Shown here one piece after another: positions 13,207 to 20,310 of a DNA stretch of 35,892 bases (its first letter is position 1; each line of letters opens with the position of its first letter). A model generated the notes under the pieces. It had not been told where the DNA came from and searched no databases. It saw only the letters and a list, made by a program, of their open reading frames with translations. The position numbers and the translations under genes were made by a program. Origin of the DNA: an uncultured Erysipelotrichaceae bacterium (GTDB lineage Bacteria > Bacillota_I > Bacilli_A > RFN20 > CAG-826); assembly GCA_902785645.1 (NCBI GenBank), contig CACZZG010000012.1, positions 1 to 35,892 on the forward strand. Reading direction: 5' to 3'.

Positions 13207-13297
13207 TGGCGGAGAATTAGAGATTCGAACTCTAGCGGGACTTGCATCCCCTATCGGTTTTCAAGACCGACCCCTTCAACCACTTGGGTAATTCTCC
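13207..13297 (-). tRNA. tRNA-Ser (TGA)
   Basis: The 91-base gene has acceptor GGAGAAT/ATTCTCC, discriminator G73, encoded CCA, anticodon TGA and the long variable arm typical of serine tRNAs. It is the last gene of the cluster. Confidence 0.95.
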
Positions 13298-13300
13298 ATT

Positions 13301-13375
13301 TGGTGGACCAGGAGGATCACGATACCCCAACCATTCGGTTATGGGCCGAAGGCTCTTCCTTTGAGCTACTGGTCC
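13301..13375 (-). tRNA. tRNA with CAT anticodon, probably Ile2 (lysidine type)
   Basis: The 75-base gene has acceptor GGACCAG/CTGGTCC, anticodon loop CCCATAA and encoded CCA. Three CAT tRNAs lie in the window; the initiator and an elongator Met are clear, so this one is most likely the Ile2 species whose C34 is converted to lysidine by TilS. The GGACC acceptor fits Ile2. Its T arm is odd: the loop reads ATCGTGA rather than TTCGANN, and the closing pair 53-61 is T-T. Confidence 0.75.
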
Positions 13376-13383
13376 GTCTTTTT

Positions 13384-13409
13384 AAATAAAGGGGTTGTTT
13401 TCCAACCCC
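13384..13409 (-). terminator. Hairpin between tRNA-Met and tRNA-Ile2
   Basis: GGGGTTG pairs with CAACCCC around a 5-base loop and is followed on the minus strand by TTTATTTAAA. The T-run is weak, so it may be a leaky terminator or a processing hairpin within the tRNA transcript. Confidence 0.5.
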
Positions 13410-13422
13410 GTTATTAACTGAT

Positions 13423-13499
13423 TGGTAGCTGAGGACGGATTTGAACCGCCGACCTTAGAGGTATGAACTCTCTGCTCTAGCCAACTGAGCTACTCAGCC
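13423..13499 (-). tRNA. Elongator tRNA-Met (CAT)
   Basis: The 77-base cloverleaf has anticodon loop TTCATAC, acceptor GGCTGAG/CTCAGCT with a G1-T72 wobble as in Bacillus elongator tRNA-Met, and encoded CCA. Confidence 0.93.
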
Positions 13500-13504
13500 A
13501 AATT

Positions 13505-13580
13505 TGGTGGATCTAAAGAGACTCGAACTCTCGACCCCCTGAATGCAAATCAGGTGCTCTCCCAACTGAGCTATAGACCC
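13505..13580 (-). tRNA. tRNA-Ala (TGC)
   Basis: The 76-base gene has anticodon loop TTTGCAT, acceptor GGGTCTA/TAGATCC, A73 and encoded CCA. The alanine identity G-T wobble is at the third acceptor pair. Confidence 0.95.
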
Positions 13581-13619
13581 AAATTGCACCTTCTTTCGAA
13601 GATGCAAGAATAATCAATC

Positions 13620-13696
13620 TGGTCGGGACGACAGGATTTGAACCTGCGACCTTCAGTTCCCAAAACTGACGCGATACCAAGCTACGCTACGTCCCG
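13620..13696 (-). tRNA. tRNA-Pro (TGG)
   Basis: The 77-base gene has anticodon loop TTTGGGA, acceptor CGGGACG/CGTCCCG, discriminator A73 and encoded CCA. Confidence 0.95.
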
Positions 13697-13700
13697 ATTA

Positions 13701-13777
13701 TGGCGCGCCTCACAAGAATCGAACTCGTAACCTCCAGATTCGTAGTCTGACACTCTATCCAGTTGAGCTAGAGGCGC
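13701..13777 (-). tRNA. tRNA-Arg (ACG)
   Basis: The 77-base gene has anticodon loop CTACGAA, so position 34 is A, to be deaminated to inosine by TadA. The acceptor is GCGCCTC/GAGGCGC with G73 and encoded CCA. Confidence 0.95.
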
Positions 13778-13779
13778 TG

Positions 13780-13854
13780 TGGAGGTTCCTACCGGATTTG
13801 AACCAGTGATCATTGAGTTGCAGTCAATTGCCTTACCAGCTTGGCTAAGGAACC
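13780..13854 (-). tRNA. tRNA-Cys (GCA)
   Basis: The 75-base gene has anticodon loop CTGCAAC, discriminator T73 (a cysteine identity element) and encoded CCA. It is the first gene of the cluster, about ten bases after the expected transcript start. Confidence 0.95.
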
Positions 13855-13925: not shown

Positions 13926-15263
13926 TTAAGCGTTGACTCTAATCCACATAGCTTCAACTTTTTCAGTTTGTGAACCAAAATCTTTCATAACGCAGCATCT
14001 ATTTAACATCTCTTCTGTTGGATATTGAGCGTCAAATTGACGGCCTTTTTCGCTTGTTGGGATTTTAATTTCCGCTTTGCCATCGATAGAATCACCGAAA
14101 TAGAATGATAAATCAACTGTGTATGTTTCTTCTTCATCTTTGTCTGCAGCATACCATTCATTGACTAAATCCCACATAGCATCACCAACGATTGGGGAAG
14201 TATAACCGACAGCATCCATGCAATTAGCGGCGACTTCTGGCATACAAATGTAGTTAACGAATTCTTCTGCTAATTCTTTGTTGGCGCCTTTTGGCATACA
14301 CCAACCGTCAAACCAAACATTGCTACCTTCGGTAGGAAGTGAGTAATTTAAGATTTTTTCAGAGCCTTCTTCAGCACTATCCATAGAATAAACAGAGTCG
14401 CCAGACCAGGCTAAGTTAGCATGGTAGACACCTCTAACAATGTCATCTTTTCCTTCATCAACTTCTAAGCCGTAAACAGTAGAACCCATGGCCTCTTTCA
14501 ATGCTTTTTCAACTTTTTCAATTGTTGCATCATCGCATCTATTAAAAATTTTGCTTAATTCAGAATTGTAATTCGCAGCAGTTGGATCTAAAGCGGCAAT
14601 GTCATCATTAAAGACATGGAAAATCGCTGCAACATATGTGTCACGATATGAATCTTTTAAAGAGAATTGTTGTTTGAATTTGTCGCCTGTGTTCCATAAG
14701 CATTCCCAAGAATTGACATCTGCTTCATCAAAATATTCAGGATCGTATGTGAAACCCATTGTGCCCCAGAAATAAGGAACAGCATATGTTAAGAATGAAC
14801 TTCCATCATTTAAGGTTTCATTTTCAAATCTTCCTTTAATATATGGGGAACCATATTTATCCCAGTTTTCTAATGACTCACCATATTTTTTGGTTTTGGC
14901 ATCATAAGAGAATGGTTCAAGCATTCCATCATTGGCCATTTTTTGAATCATATAATCGGATGGACAAATGAGGTCTGGAGATATTGAACCCAAAGAAAGT
15001 TCGGTGTACATTTCTTCGTTTGTGGAGAAGCATTCATAACCTACACGAATTGCTTTACCAGTTTTTTCTTTATAATATTTTTCAAATGCTTTGACTGTTC
15101 CATCATCGACGATTTTTCCGGTTTCGTCTGTGCCTTCATAAATGTAGTCTTCCCAGTTATAAATAACGAGGTCATACTTTTTGGAACAACCAGTGAGAGA
15201 TGCTAATGTACCTAACGCTAATAATGGAGCGGTAAGTAATAAAGCGTGTTTTGACTTAATCAT
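13926..15263 (-). CDS. potD: Spermidine/putrescine-binding lipoprotein
   Basis: This 445-residue protein is the extracytoplasmic binding subunit of the PotABCD polyamine importer. It has a lipoprotein signal with lipobox LTGC (Cys26), so it is anchored to the membrane as expected in a Gram-positive cell. The mature part begins YDLVIYNWEDYI, the typical PotD opening, followed by the GYECFSTNEEMY and CPSDYMIQKM segments of the ligand cleft. It is longer than E. coli PotD (348), mainly by inserted loops. It is the last gene of potABCD, overlaps potC by eight bases and has an AAGGAG ribosome-binding site. The exact polyamine cannot be read from the sequence. Confidence 0.94.
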   Translation of the reverse strand: MIKSKHALLLTAPLLALGTLASLTGCSKKYDLVIYNWEDYIYEGTDETGKIVDDGTVKAFEKYYKEKTGKAIRVGYECFSTNEEMYTELSLGSISPDLICPSDYMIQKMANDGMLEPFSYDAKTKKYGESLENWDKYGSPYIKGRFENETLNDGSSFLTYAVPYFWGTMGFTYDPEYFDEADVNSWECLWNTGDKFKQQFSLKDSYRDTYVAAIFHVFNDDIAALDPTAANYNSELSKIFNRCDDATIEKVEKALKEAMGSTVYGLEVDEGKDDIVRGVYHANLAWSGDSVYSMDSAEEGSEKILNYSLPTEGSNVWFDGWCMPKGANKELAEEFVNYICMPEVAANCMDAVGYTSPIVGDAMWDLVNEWYAADKDEEETYTVDLSFYFGDSIDGKAEIKIPTSEKGRQFDAQYPTEEMLNRCCVMKDFGSQTEKVEAMWIRVNA

Positions 15264-16164
15264 TTTTGTTTTTCTCCTTTTTGACTAATTTTTTAGCATT
15301 TATATTACTTCTAACATTCATGACAATCATGACTATTAAGATGACAGCAAATAAAATTGCTGTAAATGCACGTAATTGTGTTGGTAAACCAGCCTTTTTA
15401 GTGACAGCGTCAACATATGTAGAAATAGTATTAAATCCACCAACGGTTGGTTTAGTAAATGCAGTGATGACATAGTCATCAAGCGATAATGTAATTGATA
15501 ATAAGAAACCTGATAAGATGCCAGGAACGATATCTGGAATAATAACTTTCCATAAAGCTTGTGTTTGTGTGGCGCCTAAATCCATTGCGGCTTCATATAA
15601 AGCAGGATCCATTTGCTCAAGTTTTGGTTTCACAGACATAACGACATATGGAATTGATAAAACAATGTGACCAATAACTAACGTTCCAAAGTTGCGTTCA
15701 ATCTTAAATACTGAAGCCAAAATAACAAATAGCACACACAAAGAAACAGCAGTCACGATTTCTGCGTTAACCACAGGGATTTGTGTGACGAAATCCATGG
15801 TATTTTTCATCCATTTTTTACGTAAGTAATAAATACCAATAGCGCCTAATGTACCTAGCACAGTAGAAAGTGTTGCAGAAACAATAGCCACTAAAGCGGT
15901 ATTGCCAGCAGCACTCCAAATGTTGATAGCGATTTGATTACCTGAATCGAATAATGTTGTGTAGTTTTGGAAACTAAATCCACTCCATTCACCAGCGGTT
16001 TTGTGTGTGGTGAAAGAGAATACGGTGATATAGATTAATGGAGCATACATTAATAAAAGCACGAAATAAATAAAGACATTAGCTAATATCTTTTGGGCTT
16101 TGCCCCAGGCTCTTTTTCTTGAAAGGGCGGCATTGACTTGTTCAGCGGTCATATTTTGCTTCAT
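15256..16164 (-). CDS. potC: Spermidine/putrescine ABC transporter permease
   Basis: The 302-residue inner-membrane permease has about six transmembrane segments. The first is at residues 27-52, and the EAA loop that touches the ATPase reads EAAMDLGATQTQALWKVIIP. The C-terminus is Lys/Arg-rich and cytoplasmic. The ATG at 16164 is chosen: it overlaps the potB stop as TAATG and lies nine bases after GGTAGG, whereas the in-frame TTG upstream would leave no spacing. It pairs with PotB to form the channel. Confidence 0.94.
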   Translation of the reverse strand: MKQNMTAEQVNAALSRKRAWGKAQKILANVFIYFVLLLMYAPLIYITVFSFTTHKTAGEWSGFSFQNYTTLFDSGNQIAINIWSAAGNTALVAIVSATLSTVLGTLGAIGIYYLRKKWMKNTMDFVTQIPVVNAEIVTAVSLCVLFVILASVFKIERNFGTLVIGHIVLSIPYVVMSVKPKLEQMDPALYEAAMDLGATQTQALWKVIIPDIVPGILSGFLLSITLSLDDYVITAFTKPTVGGFNTISTYVDAVTKKAGLPTQLRAFTAILFAVILIVMIVMNVRSNINAKKLVKKEKNKND

Positions 16165-17015
16165 TACCAAATACCTACCTTTCTACTATCATCTTTAGAA
16201 GAGATAGATTTTTCAATTAAAATTGAGATACCAATGATCATCAACATGACCAAAGATAATACGGAACCGACGTTGTACTTGTTTGGACTGGATGATGAAC
16301 CAAACCAGAATTCGATAATATTACCGATAATCTTTGTGGTATTTTCTGACATCTTATTAGCAATAACATATGATGACATGGTTGGCATGAATGTCATTGT
16401 GCAAGCAGAAACAATACCAGGAATGGTCATTGGAATAATTGTTCTTGTAAAAACTTGGAATGGATTAGCACCTAAATCTGCAGCGGCTTCAATTTGGTTC
16501 TTATCCATTTTTAACATTTGGTTATATAAAGGCAAAATGGCGAATGGCAAGTAGTCATAAACCATGCCGATAACGATAGCCACGTATGGATAAGTCGCGG
16601 TCAAATCAAAACCGAACATCCACTTAGTCAAACCATTAATCAAAGCCTTTAAACCAATGGTACGAATAACGAAGTTGATCCACATCGGAAGTAGGAAAAT
16701 ATACACTAAAACCTTATTGGAATTGTATTTTTTGTTAGAAAGTAAGTAAGCGATTGGATAAGCGATTAAAACGCATAAAACTGTGGTTATTGCAGCGATA
16801 ATGAAGGTCACGCCGATAACTTTCCAGTTTGTTACATCAGTAAAAATTGTACCCCAGTTATTAAATGTGAATTTACCTTTTGCGTCAGTAAATGCATAGT
16901 AGAAAATCAAAACAAGAGGAAAGACCACAAAAAGGGCCATGAACACCGCATAGGGCATGCATAAGCTTCCTCTAAAGTTAAATCTTCTACGTTGTTTAAT
17001 AACTGCTTCTGACAT
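16164..17015 (-). CDS. potB: Spermidine/putrescine ABC transporter permease
   Basis: The 283-residue permease partner of PotC has about six membrane helices, the first at residues 18-42, and the ATPase-contact loop EAAADLGANPFQVFTRTIIP. It follows potA by two bases and shares one base with potC. The start has a GGGAG upstream within the end of potA. Confidence 0.94.
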   Translation of the reverse strand: MSEAVIKQRRRFNFRGSLCMPYAVFMALFVVFPLVLIFYYAFTDAKGKFTFNNWGTIFTDVTNWKVIGVTFIIAAITTVLCVLIAYPIAYLLSNKKYNSNKVLVYIFLLPMWINFVIRTIGLKALINGLTKWMFGFDLTATYPYVAIVIGMVYDYLPFAILPLYNQMLKMDKNQIEAAADLGANPFQVFTRTIIPMTIPGIVSACTMTFMPTMSSYVIANKMSENTTKIIGNIIEFWFGSSSSPNKYNVGSVLSLVMLMIIGISILIEKSISSKDDSRKVGIW

Positions 17016-17017
17016 CG

Positions 17018-18682
17018 TTATTTTTTCGCTCCCTTACGAGATAGATGAATCTTAGAAGTATCAATGAGAACAGATACTCTATCATTTTCATTCCATAAAT
17101 CTGGAGTGGACAAGACAAAGTCTTCTTCATCATCGGTTCTGACAATAATTTCATAGTGATCGCCAATGTAAATCAAAGAGATGATGTTGCCATGAATATC
17201 GCTTGCTTCAAGATCGTCACTAATTGTGATGGCTTCAAATGGAACTTCAACATTGATTTCCATATTGTTAACAGCAATTTCTTGCTTGTTTTCATCGATT
17301 AAAGTGCCTTCTTCATCATAAGAAGCACCTGGGAATAATGGTAAAATATCAAGTTTAAATTCGCTTCCAGCGAAGTCAACTTTATAATCTTTTGTAATAT
17401 AGCCATCATAGAAGTTGCTAACGAATGGCTTTTTCATAATTTGAATATTGATTGGGTCAACAGTTAAGCCAATGGTAATGCCTTCATCTAGTTCAGCGGT
17501 TGATTGCACGACAACTTCCGCTTTTCCAACATTGATGATGTATTCATAATGCATACCTTTGAAGATTTTTGAGGATACAACACCATCAACAATGCCTTTT
17601 CCGGCTTTAACAATATTAAAGTCTTCTGGCCTAACGACTACGTCGACCTTTTCATTGACTGGGAATTTGCCGAAGTCCACCGGATCGGCATCCCAATATT
17701 TATTTAAGAATCTAACTTTGTTATCTTTCGCCATGGTACCGGTATAAATATTGGATTCACCGATAAAGTCAGCGACAAAAGCATTGTTAGGTTCATCATA
17801 GATTTCTTTTGGTTTACCAACTTGTTGAATTTCACCATCGTTCATAACCACGATTGTATCTGACATAGTTAAAGCTTCTTCTTGGTCATGAGTAACATAG
17901 ATGAAAGTAATGCCAATTTTCTTGTGCATTTCTTTAAGTTCAAGCTGCATCTCTTTTCTCATCTTTAAGTCAAGAGCGCCTAAAGGTTCATCAAGCAAAA
18001 GAATCTCTGGTTCATTAACGATAGCACGTGCAATCGCAATCCTTTGTTGTTGTCCACCACTTAGTGTGGAAATATCTCTTTTTTCAAATCCTTCAAGGTC
18101 AACAACCTTCAAAGCATTTTTAACCTTCTCTTGAATTTCTTTTTTGGTGTAATGACGGAACTTAACAATTTCTAAACTTGGATTGGCTTTAAGCTTAGCA
18201 ATCTCTTCTTGTCTCTTGTGAATCTTCTCATCGAGTTCACTTCTTTGATCAGAACATGCAGTATTTGCAAGCTCTTCTTTATCAAGTTTGTTATCTAATT
18301 CAAGTTGAGCAATTCTATCTTTATCAACAACTTTTACTGTATATGGAATCTTTTTAAGCTTTAAACCAAAAGCAATATTATTGAAGATATTTAAATGAGC
18401 AAACAAGGCGTATCTTTGGAAAACGGTATTAATTGGTCTTTTATATGGAGGAAGTAAGGAAATGTCTTGACCATTCAATAAAATAGTTCCACTTGTTGGA
18501 AGTTCAAAACCAGCAATCATTCTTAATGTTGTGGTTTTACCACAACCAGAAGGACCTAAGAAGGTCACGAATTCGCCTTTCTTGATCTTTAAATTGAAAT
18601 TTTCGACAGCGTAGACATCGCTATCGGGGAATTTCTTACAGACATTATTTAGTTCAATAATGTATTGTTCATTATTTTCCAT
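17018..18682 (-). CDS. potA: Spermidine/putrescine ABC transporter ATPase, enlarged
   Basis: PotA hydrolyses ATP to drive polyamine import. Walker A is GPSGCGKTT (43-51), the Q-loop Gln89, the signature LSGGQQQ (207-213) and Walker B/D-loop LLLDEPLGALD (228-238), followed by the H-loop THDQEE. The 554 residues exceed the usual 350-380. A charged, coiled-coil-like insert lies at about 112-180, between Q-loop and signature, and the C-terminal regulatory domain (TOBE-like) has a further 50-60 residue insert near 420-480. Mycoplasma PotA proteins carry a similar insertion, so this is likely a lineage trait. It has an AAGGAGG ribosome-binding site (18690-18696) directly after the leader terminator. 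Confidence 0.93.
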   Translation of the reverse strand: MENNEQYIIELNNVCKKFPDSDVYAVENFNLKIKKGEFVTFLGPSGCGKTTTLRMIAGFELPTSGTILLNGQDISLLPPYKRPINTVFQRYALFAHLNIFNNIAFGLKLKKIPYTVKVVDKDRIAQLELDNKLDKEELANTACSDQRSELDEKIHKRQEEIAKLKANPSLEIVKFRHYTKKEIQEKVKNALKVVDLEGFEKRDISTLSGGQQQRIAIARAIVNEPEILLLDEPLGALDLKMRKEMQLELKEMHKKIGITFIYVTHDQEEALTMSDTIVVMNDGEIQQVGKPKEIYDEPNNAFVADFIGESNIYTGTMAKDNKVRFLNKYWDADPVDFGKFPVNEKVDVVVRPEDFNIVKAGKGIVDGVVSSKIFKGMHYEYIINVGKAEVVVQSTAELDEGITIGLTVDPINIQIMKKPFVSNFYDGYITKDYKVDFAGSEFKLDILPLFPGASYDEEGTLIDENKQEIAVNNMEINVEVPFEAITISDDLEASDIHGNIISLIYIGDHYEIIVRTDDEEDFVLSTPDLWNENDRVSVLIDTSKIHLSRKGAKK

Positions 18683-18696
18683 GTCCCATCCTCCTT

Positions 18697-18729
18697 AAAA
18701 AATAAAAAGATACAAACCTAATTTGTACC
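18697..18729 (-). terminator. Terminator hairpin in front of potA
   Basis: On the minus strand GGTACAAA pairs with TTTGTATC (eight pairs, one wobble) around five bases and is followed by TTTTTATTTTTT. The T-run abuts the potA ribosome-binding site, the layout of an attenuator. Confidence 0.88.
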
Positions 18730-19026
18730 TCGCGTATATAGTATAGTCTTCTAGTATAGAAGAAATTCTAGCGTTTTTGGGAGTCTATATAGTAAATACT
18801 TACTTTTACTACTCTTATTATACATTCACAAGGTACGACGGAGACTTTCACTCCAAGCATAAGCTTATAAATTAATAACAAGATATCACTATCTCTAATC
18901 CGGCAATTTGACCAAGCTGTCCGACGCTTTTTTCCTTCTAAATAGATTGGGTCAAGTTTCAATGCATCTCACATTGATAGAATTAGGCGTGACGTAGTCC
19001 CAATAAAACGACTACAATTTTCACGC
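18697..19026 (-). ncRNA. Structured RNA or riboswitch-like leader of potABCD
   Basis: The 545 bases between potA and the divergent lipoprotein gene hold no credible gene but a well-delimited RNA of about 330 nt on the minus strand. It begins with hairpin GCGTGA/TCACGC enclosing GTAGTC/GACTAC (18987-19026). A junction closed by CTAAT/ATTAG (18982-18986 with 18895-18899) then holds hairpin TCAATG/CATTGA (18959-18977) and helix TTGACC/GGTCAA (18950-18955 with 18908-18913). Next come AGATA-GTGA-TATCT with a GNRA loop (18881-18894), GGAG/CTCC (18840-18854), and TAGTAAA/TTTACTA inside GAGT/ACTC (18781-18814). Two mutually exclusive hairpins (18748-18762 and 18757-18770) precede the terminator. I see no T-box, RNase P, tmRNA, SRP or common riboswitch signature. 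Either a leader that switches potABCD or a discrete ncRNA. Confidence 0.6.
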
Positions 19027-19030
19027 AAAA

Positions 19031-19059
19031 ATAATATATGTATAATCTTCAAAAAACAA
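19031..19059 (-). promoter_or_regulatory. Promoter of the potA leader RNA
   Basis: The -35 TTGTTT (19054-19059) and -10 TATTAT (19031-19036) have a 17-base spacer, and the first hairpin of the RNA starts about five bases after the -10. Confidence 0.6.
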
Positions 19060-19227: not shown

Positions 19228-20310
19228 ATGAAAAAACTATTGTTCTTATTACCATTATTAGCGCTCTCTTCACTAGGCATCTCTGGATGTAAAAGTGATA
19301 GAAAAGCACGTATAACTTATGGAACACTTGTTGATAAAGGTGTGACAGAACTTTTATATAGTGCTTTAAAGAATAAAGTTGCTAATAACGAAAATATGTT
19401 AGTCGCTGTTTGGCAAGACTCCGGTTTGCCGTGTGGATGTTGGACAACTTTCAAATCCGTTTTGGAAGAATATGTTAAAACATATAAGACCAAAATTTAC
19501 ACAATCGCAAGATCTCAATTTTCTGATGGAGATGACACATTTGGACTAACAATCCTTAATGACACAACCGCGCCAACATTTGCCTTAATTAAAAATGGTA
19601 AAAAGACAAACGAATTTATCTATAGTAATGACAACAAACCAATGTTCACAAAACTTGATAGTTTAAGAACGGCAATCACAAAAATTGCTCGTGATCCTCA
19701 ATATATGCTTGTTGATCAAACTTATTTAGATAATGCCTTATTTACCGAAAAGAAAGATAAAGTCATTATTCATTATATTTGGAGCTTCTGCCCAGATTGT
19801 TTATATTGTTTCCCAAATGTCATGGTTCCATATTCCGAAAACAATCAATTTGACACAAAAGTGTGGATTATTGATTTAGGCGTTAAGGGAATCTTATTGG
19901 ATGAAAATAATAATTTCATTGGAACAGGCATTGAAACATATGTTAGCTTTTTAAAAGAACACAAGATGTCAGCGGCTGGTGATGAAAGATTTGGATATGA
20001 CCGCGGATTTGTTCCTACCACTCAAATATGGGAAAAAGGTAGGTTAGTAGATGCCACGACATTCTTCAATGACACAATTGAATTGAAAGACGACAAATAC
20101 ATCGTTACAAAATCCTTCTATAGCGAAGAAAGAATTAAAAACATAAATTATGTTGCATATTCGTTAGAAGGCAAAGAGATTCCTGAAGCAGATGTTGTTA
20201 AAACATTAAACAAAAACACTGGTGATTATGATTATTCTTGGGATCAAGATAAAGCTGCTGTCTACCACAAACCATTCTTGGAATCATTCTTAGAAAAATA
20301 CGCAAAATAA
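19228..20310 (+). CDS. Lipoprotein with two thioredoxin-like domains
   Basis: The 360-residue protein has a lipoprotein signal with lipobox ISGC (Cys21). Two thioredoxin-like units follow. The first (about 30-155) has VWQDSGLPCGCW with Cys69/Cys71 and a cis-Pro element TAPTFALIKNG. The second (about 160-345) has HYIWSFCPDCLYC with Cys188, Cys191 and Cys194 and the matching VPTTQIWEKG. A surface thiol-disulfide exchange or copper/heme-related role is possible, but no partner gene identifies it. The first motif, CGC, is unusual for an oxidoreductase; the second, CPDC, is a standard CXXC. It has its own promoter and terminator and is transcribed away from the pot operon. Confidence 0.78.
   Translation: MKKLLFLLPLLALSSLGISGCKSDRKARITYGTLVDKGVTELLYSALKNKVANNENMLVAVWQDSGLPCGCWTTFKSVLEEYVKTYKTKIYTIARSQFSDGDDTFGLTILNDTTAPTFALIKNGKKTNEFIYSNDNKPMFTKLDSLRTAITKIARDPQYMLVDQTYLDNALFTEKKDKVIIHYIWSFCPDCLYCFPNVMVPYSENNQFDTKVWIIDLGVKGILLDENNNFIGTGIETYVSFLKEHKMSAAGDERFGYDRGFVPTTQIWEKGRLVDATTFFNDTIELKDDKYIVTKSFYSEERIKNINYVAYSLEGKEIPEADVVKTLNKNTGDYDYSWDQDKAAVYHKPFLESFLEKYAK

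Follow-up and report, generated by a model that had tools for sequence, protein, structure and literature searches.

The RNA that precedes the potABCD operon in the window (the whole stretch of 35,892 nucleotides that was analysed) is interpreted as a candidate polyamine riboswitch, belonging to a widespread and essentially uncatalogued class of leaders, about 200-300 nt long, that would act as an OFF switch by transcription termination. A probability of about 0.7 is given to this reading, in which the leader would bind its ligand, presumably a polyamine, directly. The anatomy of the leader and of its switch is very well supported, and the RNA shows one hallmark of a riboswitch, a conserved structure of aptamer type linked to an expression platform. 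The RNA itself, its relatives, its helices, the co-variation between antiterminator and terminator and the association with polyamine genes were all established by computation. It is also rather likely that the class is a new polyamine-sensing one, unrelated to SAM-I and occurring in Bacillota and perhaps in further phyla, that it has two or more aptamer subtypes, which may differ in ligand, and that it governs import alone in apparently auxotrophic Bacilli.

Polyamines are abundant and bind RNA everywhere, and dedicated riboswitches have long been expected. The one well-supported bacterial class described so far is a rare SAM-I variant (PMC10853860). The RNA reported here is, by present count, far more common than this variant; it is highly structured and lies before both synthesis and import genes, which makes the polyamine riboswitch question directly testable. 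If the proposed reading is correct, the class would account for the setting of polyamine levels in many Gram-positive bacteria.

Organization of the potABCD leader

The leader is encoded on the minus strand, from about 19025 to 18697 (~330 nt), directly upstream of potABCD. Its flanking elements and the operon are as follows.

19031 to 19059, minus strand: promoter TTGTTT-17-TATTAT
18709 to 18731, minus strand: terminator hairpin, with GGUACAAA/UUUGUAUC at 18729-18709 and the 5' arm GAGGUAC at 18731-18725
18697 to 18708, minus strand: terminator U tract UUUUUAUUUUUU
18690 to 18696, minus strand: potA ribosome-binding site AAGGAGG
17018 to 18682, minus strand: potA, polyamine ABC transporter ATPase, the putative regulated gene (ATG at 18682; TIGR01187 above its cut-off)
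13926 to 17015, minus strand: potBCD, remainder of the operon
16164 to 17015, minus strand: potB, assigned by operon position and reading of the ORF translation
15256 to 16170, minus strand: potC, assigned in the same manner
13926 to 15263, minus strand: potD, PotD/PotF-like, with a SBP_bac_8 match

The promoter proposed in the first-pass annotation at 19031-19059 could be retained: its hexamers are present and recur with the 17-nt spacing at the matching place in 8/8 related genomes, with the consensus TTGNNN-17-TAT(T/A)(A/T)T. A generic promoter scan missed it since it scores only 8/12. The terminator that had been placed at the potA ribosome-binding site is likewise found there, the U tract ending at 18697 and the binding site starting at 18696. 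Folding of the 341-nt RNA yields an energy of -88.7 kcal/mol (z = -3.2), better than 99/100 shuffles.

The leader had been described as devoid of protein genes, and no SD-preceded ORF of at least 12 codons was detected inside it in the 8 relatives checked. Attenuation driven by a translated leader peptide, as in speFL or trp-like leaders, is scarcely credible on that account, the conservation residing in RNA helices and not in codons, although upstream ORFs are used at polyamine genes elsewhere (odc1 motif, PMC8632094).

PotA is long (554 aa), its ABC domain being split by a Lys/Glu-rich insertion (about residues 105-173) and followed by a long C-terminal extension. A divergent gene on the plus strand (19228-20310) encodes a lipoprotein that contains a CGCW stretch and may be thioredoxin-like, and a similar gene adjoins the RNA in several relatives. 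Seven tRNA genes are clustered at 13207-13854, directly downstream of potD. Contig ends fall inside the RNA in two related genomes (G001 C21/C1, G004 C58), and a second copy of the RNA was not found in the genome of the window.

Secondary structure and co-variation

The first-pass annotation had recognized a structured RNA with multiple helices and a GNRA-capped hairpin. Both descriptions hold, as every named helix pairs without mismatch in the window and the GNRA loop is carried by P3. The fold comprises a pseudoknot domain (P1, P1b and the pseudoknot itself), a 3' domain with several helices (P3, P4, P6, P9) and the terminator. The elements are given below in the 5' to 3' direction of the transcript.

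18987 to 19026, minus strand: 5' subdomain of the window's subtype, GCGUGA(19026-19021)/UCACGC(18992-18987) and GUAGUC(19015-19010)/GACUAC(18999-18994), kept in the genus and in genus g7
18777 to 19003, minus strand: long-range pairing UUGG(19003-19000)/CCAA(18780-18777), which closes the RNA in the subtype of the window and whose sequence is kept across the genus
18895 to 18986, minus strand: CUAAU(18986-18982)/AUUAG(18899-18895), closing helix of the pseudoknot domain in the subtype of the window, also seen by eye in locus L049
18959 to 18977, minus strand: hairpin UCAAUG/CAUUGA
18900 to 18955, minus strand: pseudoknot domain, the part resembling Rfam family RF02440
18955-18950/18913-18908, minus strand: P1 UUGACC/GGUCAA, in the pseudoknot domain
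18929-18926/18917-18914, minus strand: P1b AAGC/GCUU, in the pseudoknot domain
18924-18921/18903-18900, minus strand: pseudoknot UCGG/CCGG
18881 to 18894, minus strand: P3 hairpin AGAUA-GUGA-UAUCU with GNRA loop (GGCAAC/GUUGCC in most relatives)
18814 to 18882, minus strand: P4 CUUGUUAU(18882-18875)/AUAAUAAG(18821-18814), closing the 3' domain, with both-side changes in 5/7 modelled pairs
18825 to 18871, minus strand: P6 UUUAUAAG(18871-18864)/CUUGUGAA(18832-18825), with a variable insert containing GGAG/CUCC
18781 to 18814, minus strand: P9 GAGU/ACUC with inner GUAGUAAA/UUUACUAU

Co-variation across relatives had been put forward as a check of the fold, and it was found. In an alignment of 93 sequences, 98.6% of the cells are paired, a count that is favored by the fitting of this alignment to the structure of the model, and both-side changes occur at 17/29 base pairs (125 cells), a result reached by 0/500 shuffles. 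Sliding the partners by 1-3 columns lowers the pairing of the same sequences to about 40-54%. When 35 members, the window included, are aligned with MAFFT without fitting to the model, 97.4% of the cells are paired and 7 pairs are changed on both sides (0/500). In the pseudoknot domain, GC/AU variation is seen in P1b, and the CGG/CCG of the type-1 pseudoknot does not change.

Relation to known RNA families

At curated cut-offs, Rfam detects only tRNAs in the window and the leader region is without a match. At the gathering thresholds as well as at a permissive E-value, the Rfam check that had been suggested matched no housekeeping RNA, no T-box and no SAM, lysine or other known riboswitch in the region. 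The earlier statement that the RNA belongs to no known family is thus correct above the Rfam cut-off and needs a qualification below it. A 54-nt piece (18954-18900) resembles RF02440, "SpF59 sRNA (ldcC RNA)", a 54-nt Streptococcus family; ldcC belongs to the polyamine genes. This match is weak (E = 0.21 in the permissive search), and membership of the window in RF02440 is not claimed because it scores 21 bits against a gathering threshold of 37.2 bits; its nearest relatives reach 30-31 bits. The window nevertheless carries a core of the RF02440 type, UGACC..CGGACAGC..GGUCA..GCCG.

The likeness becomes stronger among relatives. RF02440 matches the window's genus with E about 6e-4 and a second genus, g7 (G136, G157), where the RNA is again located upstream of potA. 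In other Bacilli the matches are far above the cut-off, once (L048) before speD and a lysine/ornithine decarboxylase gene, and the resemblance extends there well past 54 nt (AAUAAGAGUAGUAAAAGUAA...CUAUAUAGACUC). The RF02440 cut-off is exceeded by 17/18 relatives scanned with Rfam, and no other family covers their RNA. The 54 nt of RF02440 correspond to the pseudoknot domain (UGACC..CGGACAGC..GGUCAAAUGCCG), about a fifth of the RNA. The Rfam entry, filed as an sRNA without a switch, therefore shows only a fragment and calls for correction; it misses the window and the type-2 members described below. Weak RF02440 matches at L035, L037, L039, L050 and L052-L054 resemble protein-coding sequence and were set aside.

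The spermidine riboswitch derived from SAM-I (Salvail et al. 2023) comprises 13 examples and is turned OFF by termination (PMC10853860). Its targets are similar (speD, ldcC), and its terminator/antiterminator OFF switch is like the one proposed here (PMC10853860). The window RNA differs in showing no SAM-I match over the region, at the gathering threshold or at E 5, with the reservation that divergent variants might score below the SAM-I model of Rfam. Two other candidate regulatory RNAs found at polyamine genes, the potE motif, restricted to Veillonella and weakly co-varying, and the odc1 motif, an alphaproteobacterial hairpin with an upstream ORF, are functional parallels only (PMC8632094). 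The same applies to Borrelia burgdorferi, a spermidine auxotroph in which spermidine lowers potAB and premature transcripts are observed; their early 3' ends lie within the coding region and are thought to depend on translation, and no comparable RNA was described (PMC10319736). The full RNA was not found described in the open-access literature and is therefore called a new class, an earlier account elsewhere being possible.

Distribution and subtypes

The 5'-core pattern CGGACRGCN{1,2}GGTCAAATN{0,1}GCCG was scanned over 85,000 species genomes and retrieved at least 120 loci. Among the matches listed, more than 100 bear additional parts of the RNA; the lineages include, within Bacillota, Bacillus, Paenibacillus, Ruminococcus with other Clostridia, Acetobacterium and Erysipelotrichaceae, and a few MAGs carry the label Spirochaetes or Synergistaceae. 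Pattern matches L069, L148 and L154 resemble coding DNA, and no other part of the RNA accompanies them.

A covariance model, R1, was based on 31 loci, none of them from the lineage of the window, and restricted to the 3' domain, which had not been used in selecting these loci. R1 matches the window at 18780-18897 (minus strand) with 50.2 bits (E = 6.7e-8 in 137 kb, 3.1e-7 in 630 kb) and, with E = 5.9e-7, this is the sole significant match in the genome of the window. The features that define the class accompany it: a pseudoknot domain upstream, a polyamine gene downstream and a terminator arm that can pair with the P6 3' strand. At E 0.1, R1 matches 19/279 genomes of the order, the weakest three being taken as chance; at E 0.001, it matches 8 of about 395 genomes in the class and phylum samples. 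The RNA is therefore widespread but patchy. DNA similarity alone recovers the genus only, because blastn matches further out are chance. The matches L194-L196 (E 0.03-0.08) were taken as chance and, together with L184, left out of the support.

Two subtypes were distinguished. Type 1 carries CGGACAGC. Type 2 (L179-L183, L185-L187, L198, L199) has the same 3' domain and a different pseudoknot-domain sequence without CGGACAGC; its members precede carboxynorspermidine synthase and are undetected by Rfam. By eye and in single-sequence folds, long complementary strands are found at the place of the type-2 pseudoknot, such as UGGCGA/UCGCCA (L182) and AUGACGA/UCGUCAU (L187), and this different sequence with conserved complementarity supports the pseudoknot pairing.

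Terminator and antiterminator

The proposed switch relies on two strands of the window RNA.

18830 to 18836, minus strand: antiterminator strand GUACCUU, overlapping the P6 3' strand
18725 to 18731, minus strand: terminator 5' arm GAGGUAC, partner of the antiterminator strand

Pairing of AGGTAC with GTACCT had been offered as a possible antiterminator, along with two mutually exclusive hairpins near the 3' end. Both proposals were borne out: the hairpins are conserved, and the GUACCUU/GAGGUAC duplex, kept within the genus, shows co-variation over the whole class. Positions 18830-18832 of the antiterminator strand also belong to P6, and positions 18725-18729 of its partner also belong to the terminator; the two states are therefore mutually exclusive. 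Their energies in the window are close (-41.7 for aptamer plus terminator, -38.4 for the antiterminator).

In most loci the terminator is located 30-220 nt beyond the conserved RNA, with a 5' arm complementary to the CUUG-ending strand of the P6 3' side; a simple scan detected no terminator in 21/110 members. The paired strands change together, as UCAGCUUG with CAGGCUGA in Ruminococcus, ACACUUG with CAAGUGU in L057, GUACCUU with AAGGUAC in the window's genus, and AUACCUU vs AUGCCUU with partners AGGUAU vs AGGCAA in L064/L068. For 16 sequence types, the cognate duplexes average -13.4 kcal/mol vs -9.2 +/- 0.7 (sd) kcal/mol when permuted by antiterminator type, averaged over 20 draws, and 0/2000 permutations reach the cognate value.

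As P6 and the terminator exclude the antiterminator, we infer that stabilization of the aptamer leads to termination. An abundant polyamine, most likely spermidine or else putrescine, would bind to and stabilize the fold that has the P6 3' strand ...CUUGUGAA base-paired; this would let the terminator form, and transcription would end before potA (OFF). When the polyamine is scarce, GUACCUU would pair with the terminator 5' arm and potABCD would be transcribed. A protein or tRNA cofactor may assist the RNA.

Associated genes and probable ligand

Gene families were assigned with NCBIfam and Pfam on one representative protein per gene type, using ORFs called in this analysis. Polyamine genes lie downstream in 93/96 loci having both the RNA and readable sequence, closely related species being counted at full weight. 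The first recognized gene in these 96 loci is carboxynorspermidine synthase (46), speD, encoding SAM decarboxylase (36), potA (6) or an Orn/Lys/Arg decarboxylase gene (5); speD and the latter decarboxylase occur together in 29 loci.

The first-pass annotation had left the choice between a riboswitch for the polyamine operon and a stand-alone RNA. Judged from sequence, the riboswitch appears favored by the co-variation, by an association that is almost confined to polyamine genes in many lineages, and by the conserved, mutually exclusive 3' hairpins. A small RNA ending at its own terminator, with potA nearby by accident, would fit the presence of a dedicated promoter and terminator as well as the sRNA type given to RF02440 in Rfam. 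It is very improbable, because a polyamine gene follows in nearly every readable relative; moreover, the terminator abuts the potA ribosome-binding site and its arm co-varies with an antiterminator that would be of no use to a free sRNA.

A polyamine-responsive protein or other macromolecule could also act as the sensor by binding the conserved RNA, the leader still being controlled by its terminator. The anatomy and the gene link fit this explanation equally. It is nevertheless considered unlikely, since the long invariant single-stranded stretches around the pseudoknot and the spread over differing operon types and lineages resemble aptamers, and no accompanying partner gene was noticed in an unsystematic look at the loci viewed.

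The direct sensing of a polyamine that we favor has further to be weighed against a riboswitch for a ligand other than a polyamine, such as SAM, its decarboxylated form, lysine or an intermediate of the pathway, as many members are located upstream of speD and Orn/Lys/Arg decarboxylase genes. Such a ligand is quite unlikely: the carboxynorspermidine route makes no use of decarboxylated SAM, and the window's genus keeps the RNA on an importer. AdoMet decarboxylase, carboxynorspermidine synthase and Orn/Lys/Arg decarboxylase, the three families searched for, were not found in 6 draft genomes of this genus (3/6 at least 90% complete), and the positive controls worked. An imported polyamine is therefore the likely ligand. 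If the genus is auxotrophic, a polyamine would be the only signal common to the importer and biosynthetic operons, which argues against SAM, decarboxylated SAM and lysine.

In the remaining 3/96 loci, the first gene encodes an M28 peptidase (2) or a C39-like lipoprotein (1). M28 peptidases were seen downstream at L047, L074 and L087, and C39-like lipoproteins at L049, L056, L161, L169, L202 and L204. These minority genes encode secreted M28 or C39-like peptidase lipoproteins without a known polyamine role, and such neighbors may be a sign of unrecognized polyamine-related functions.
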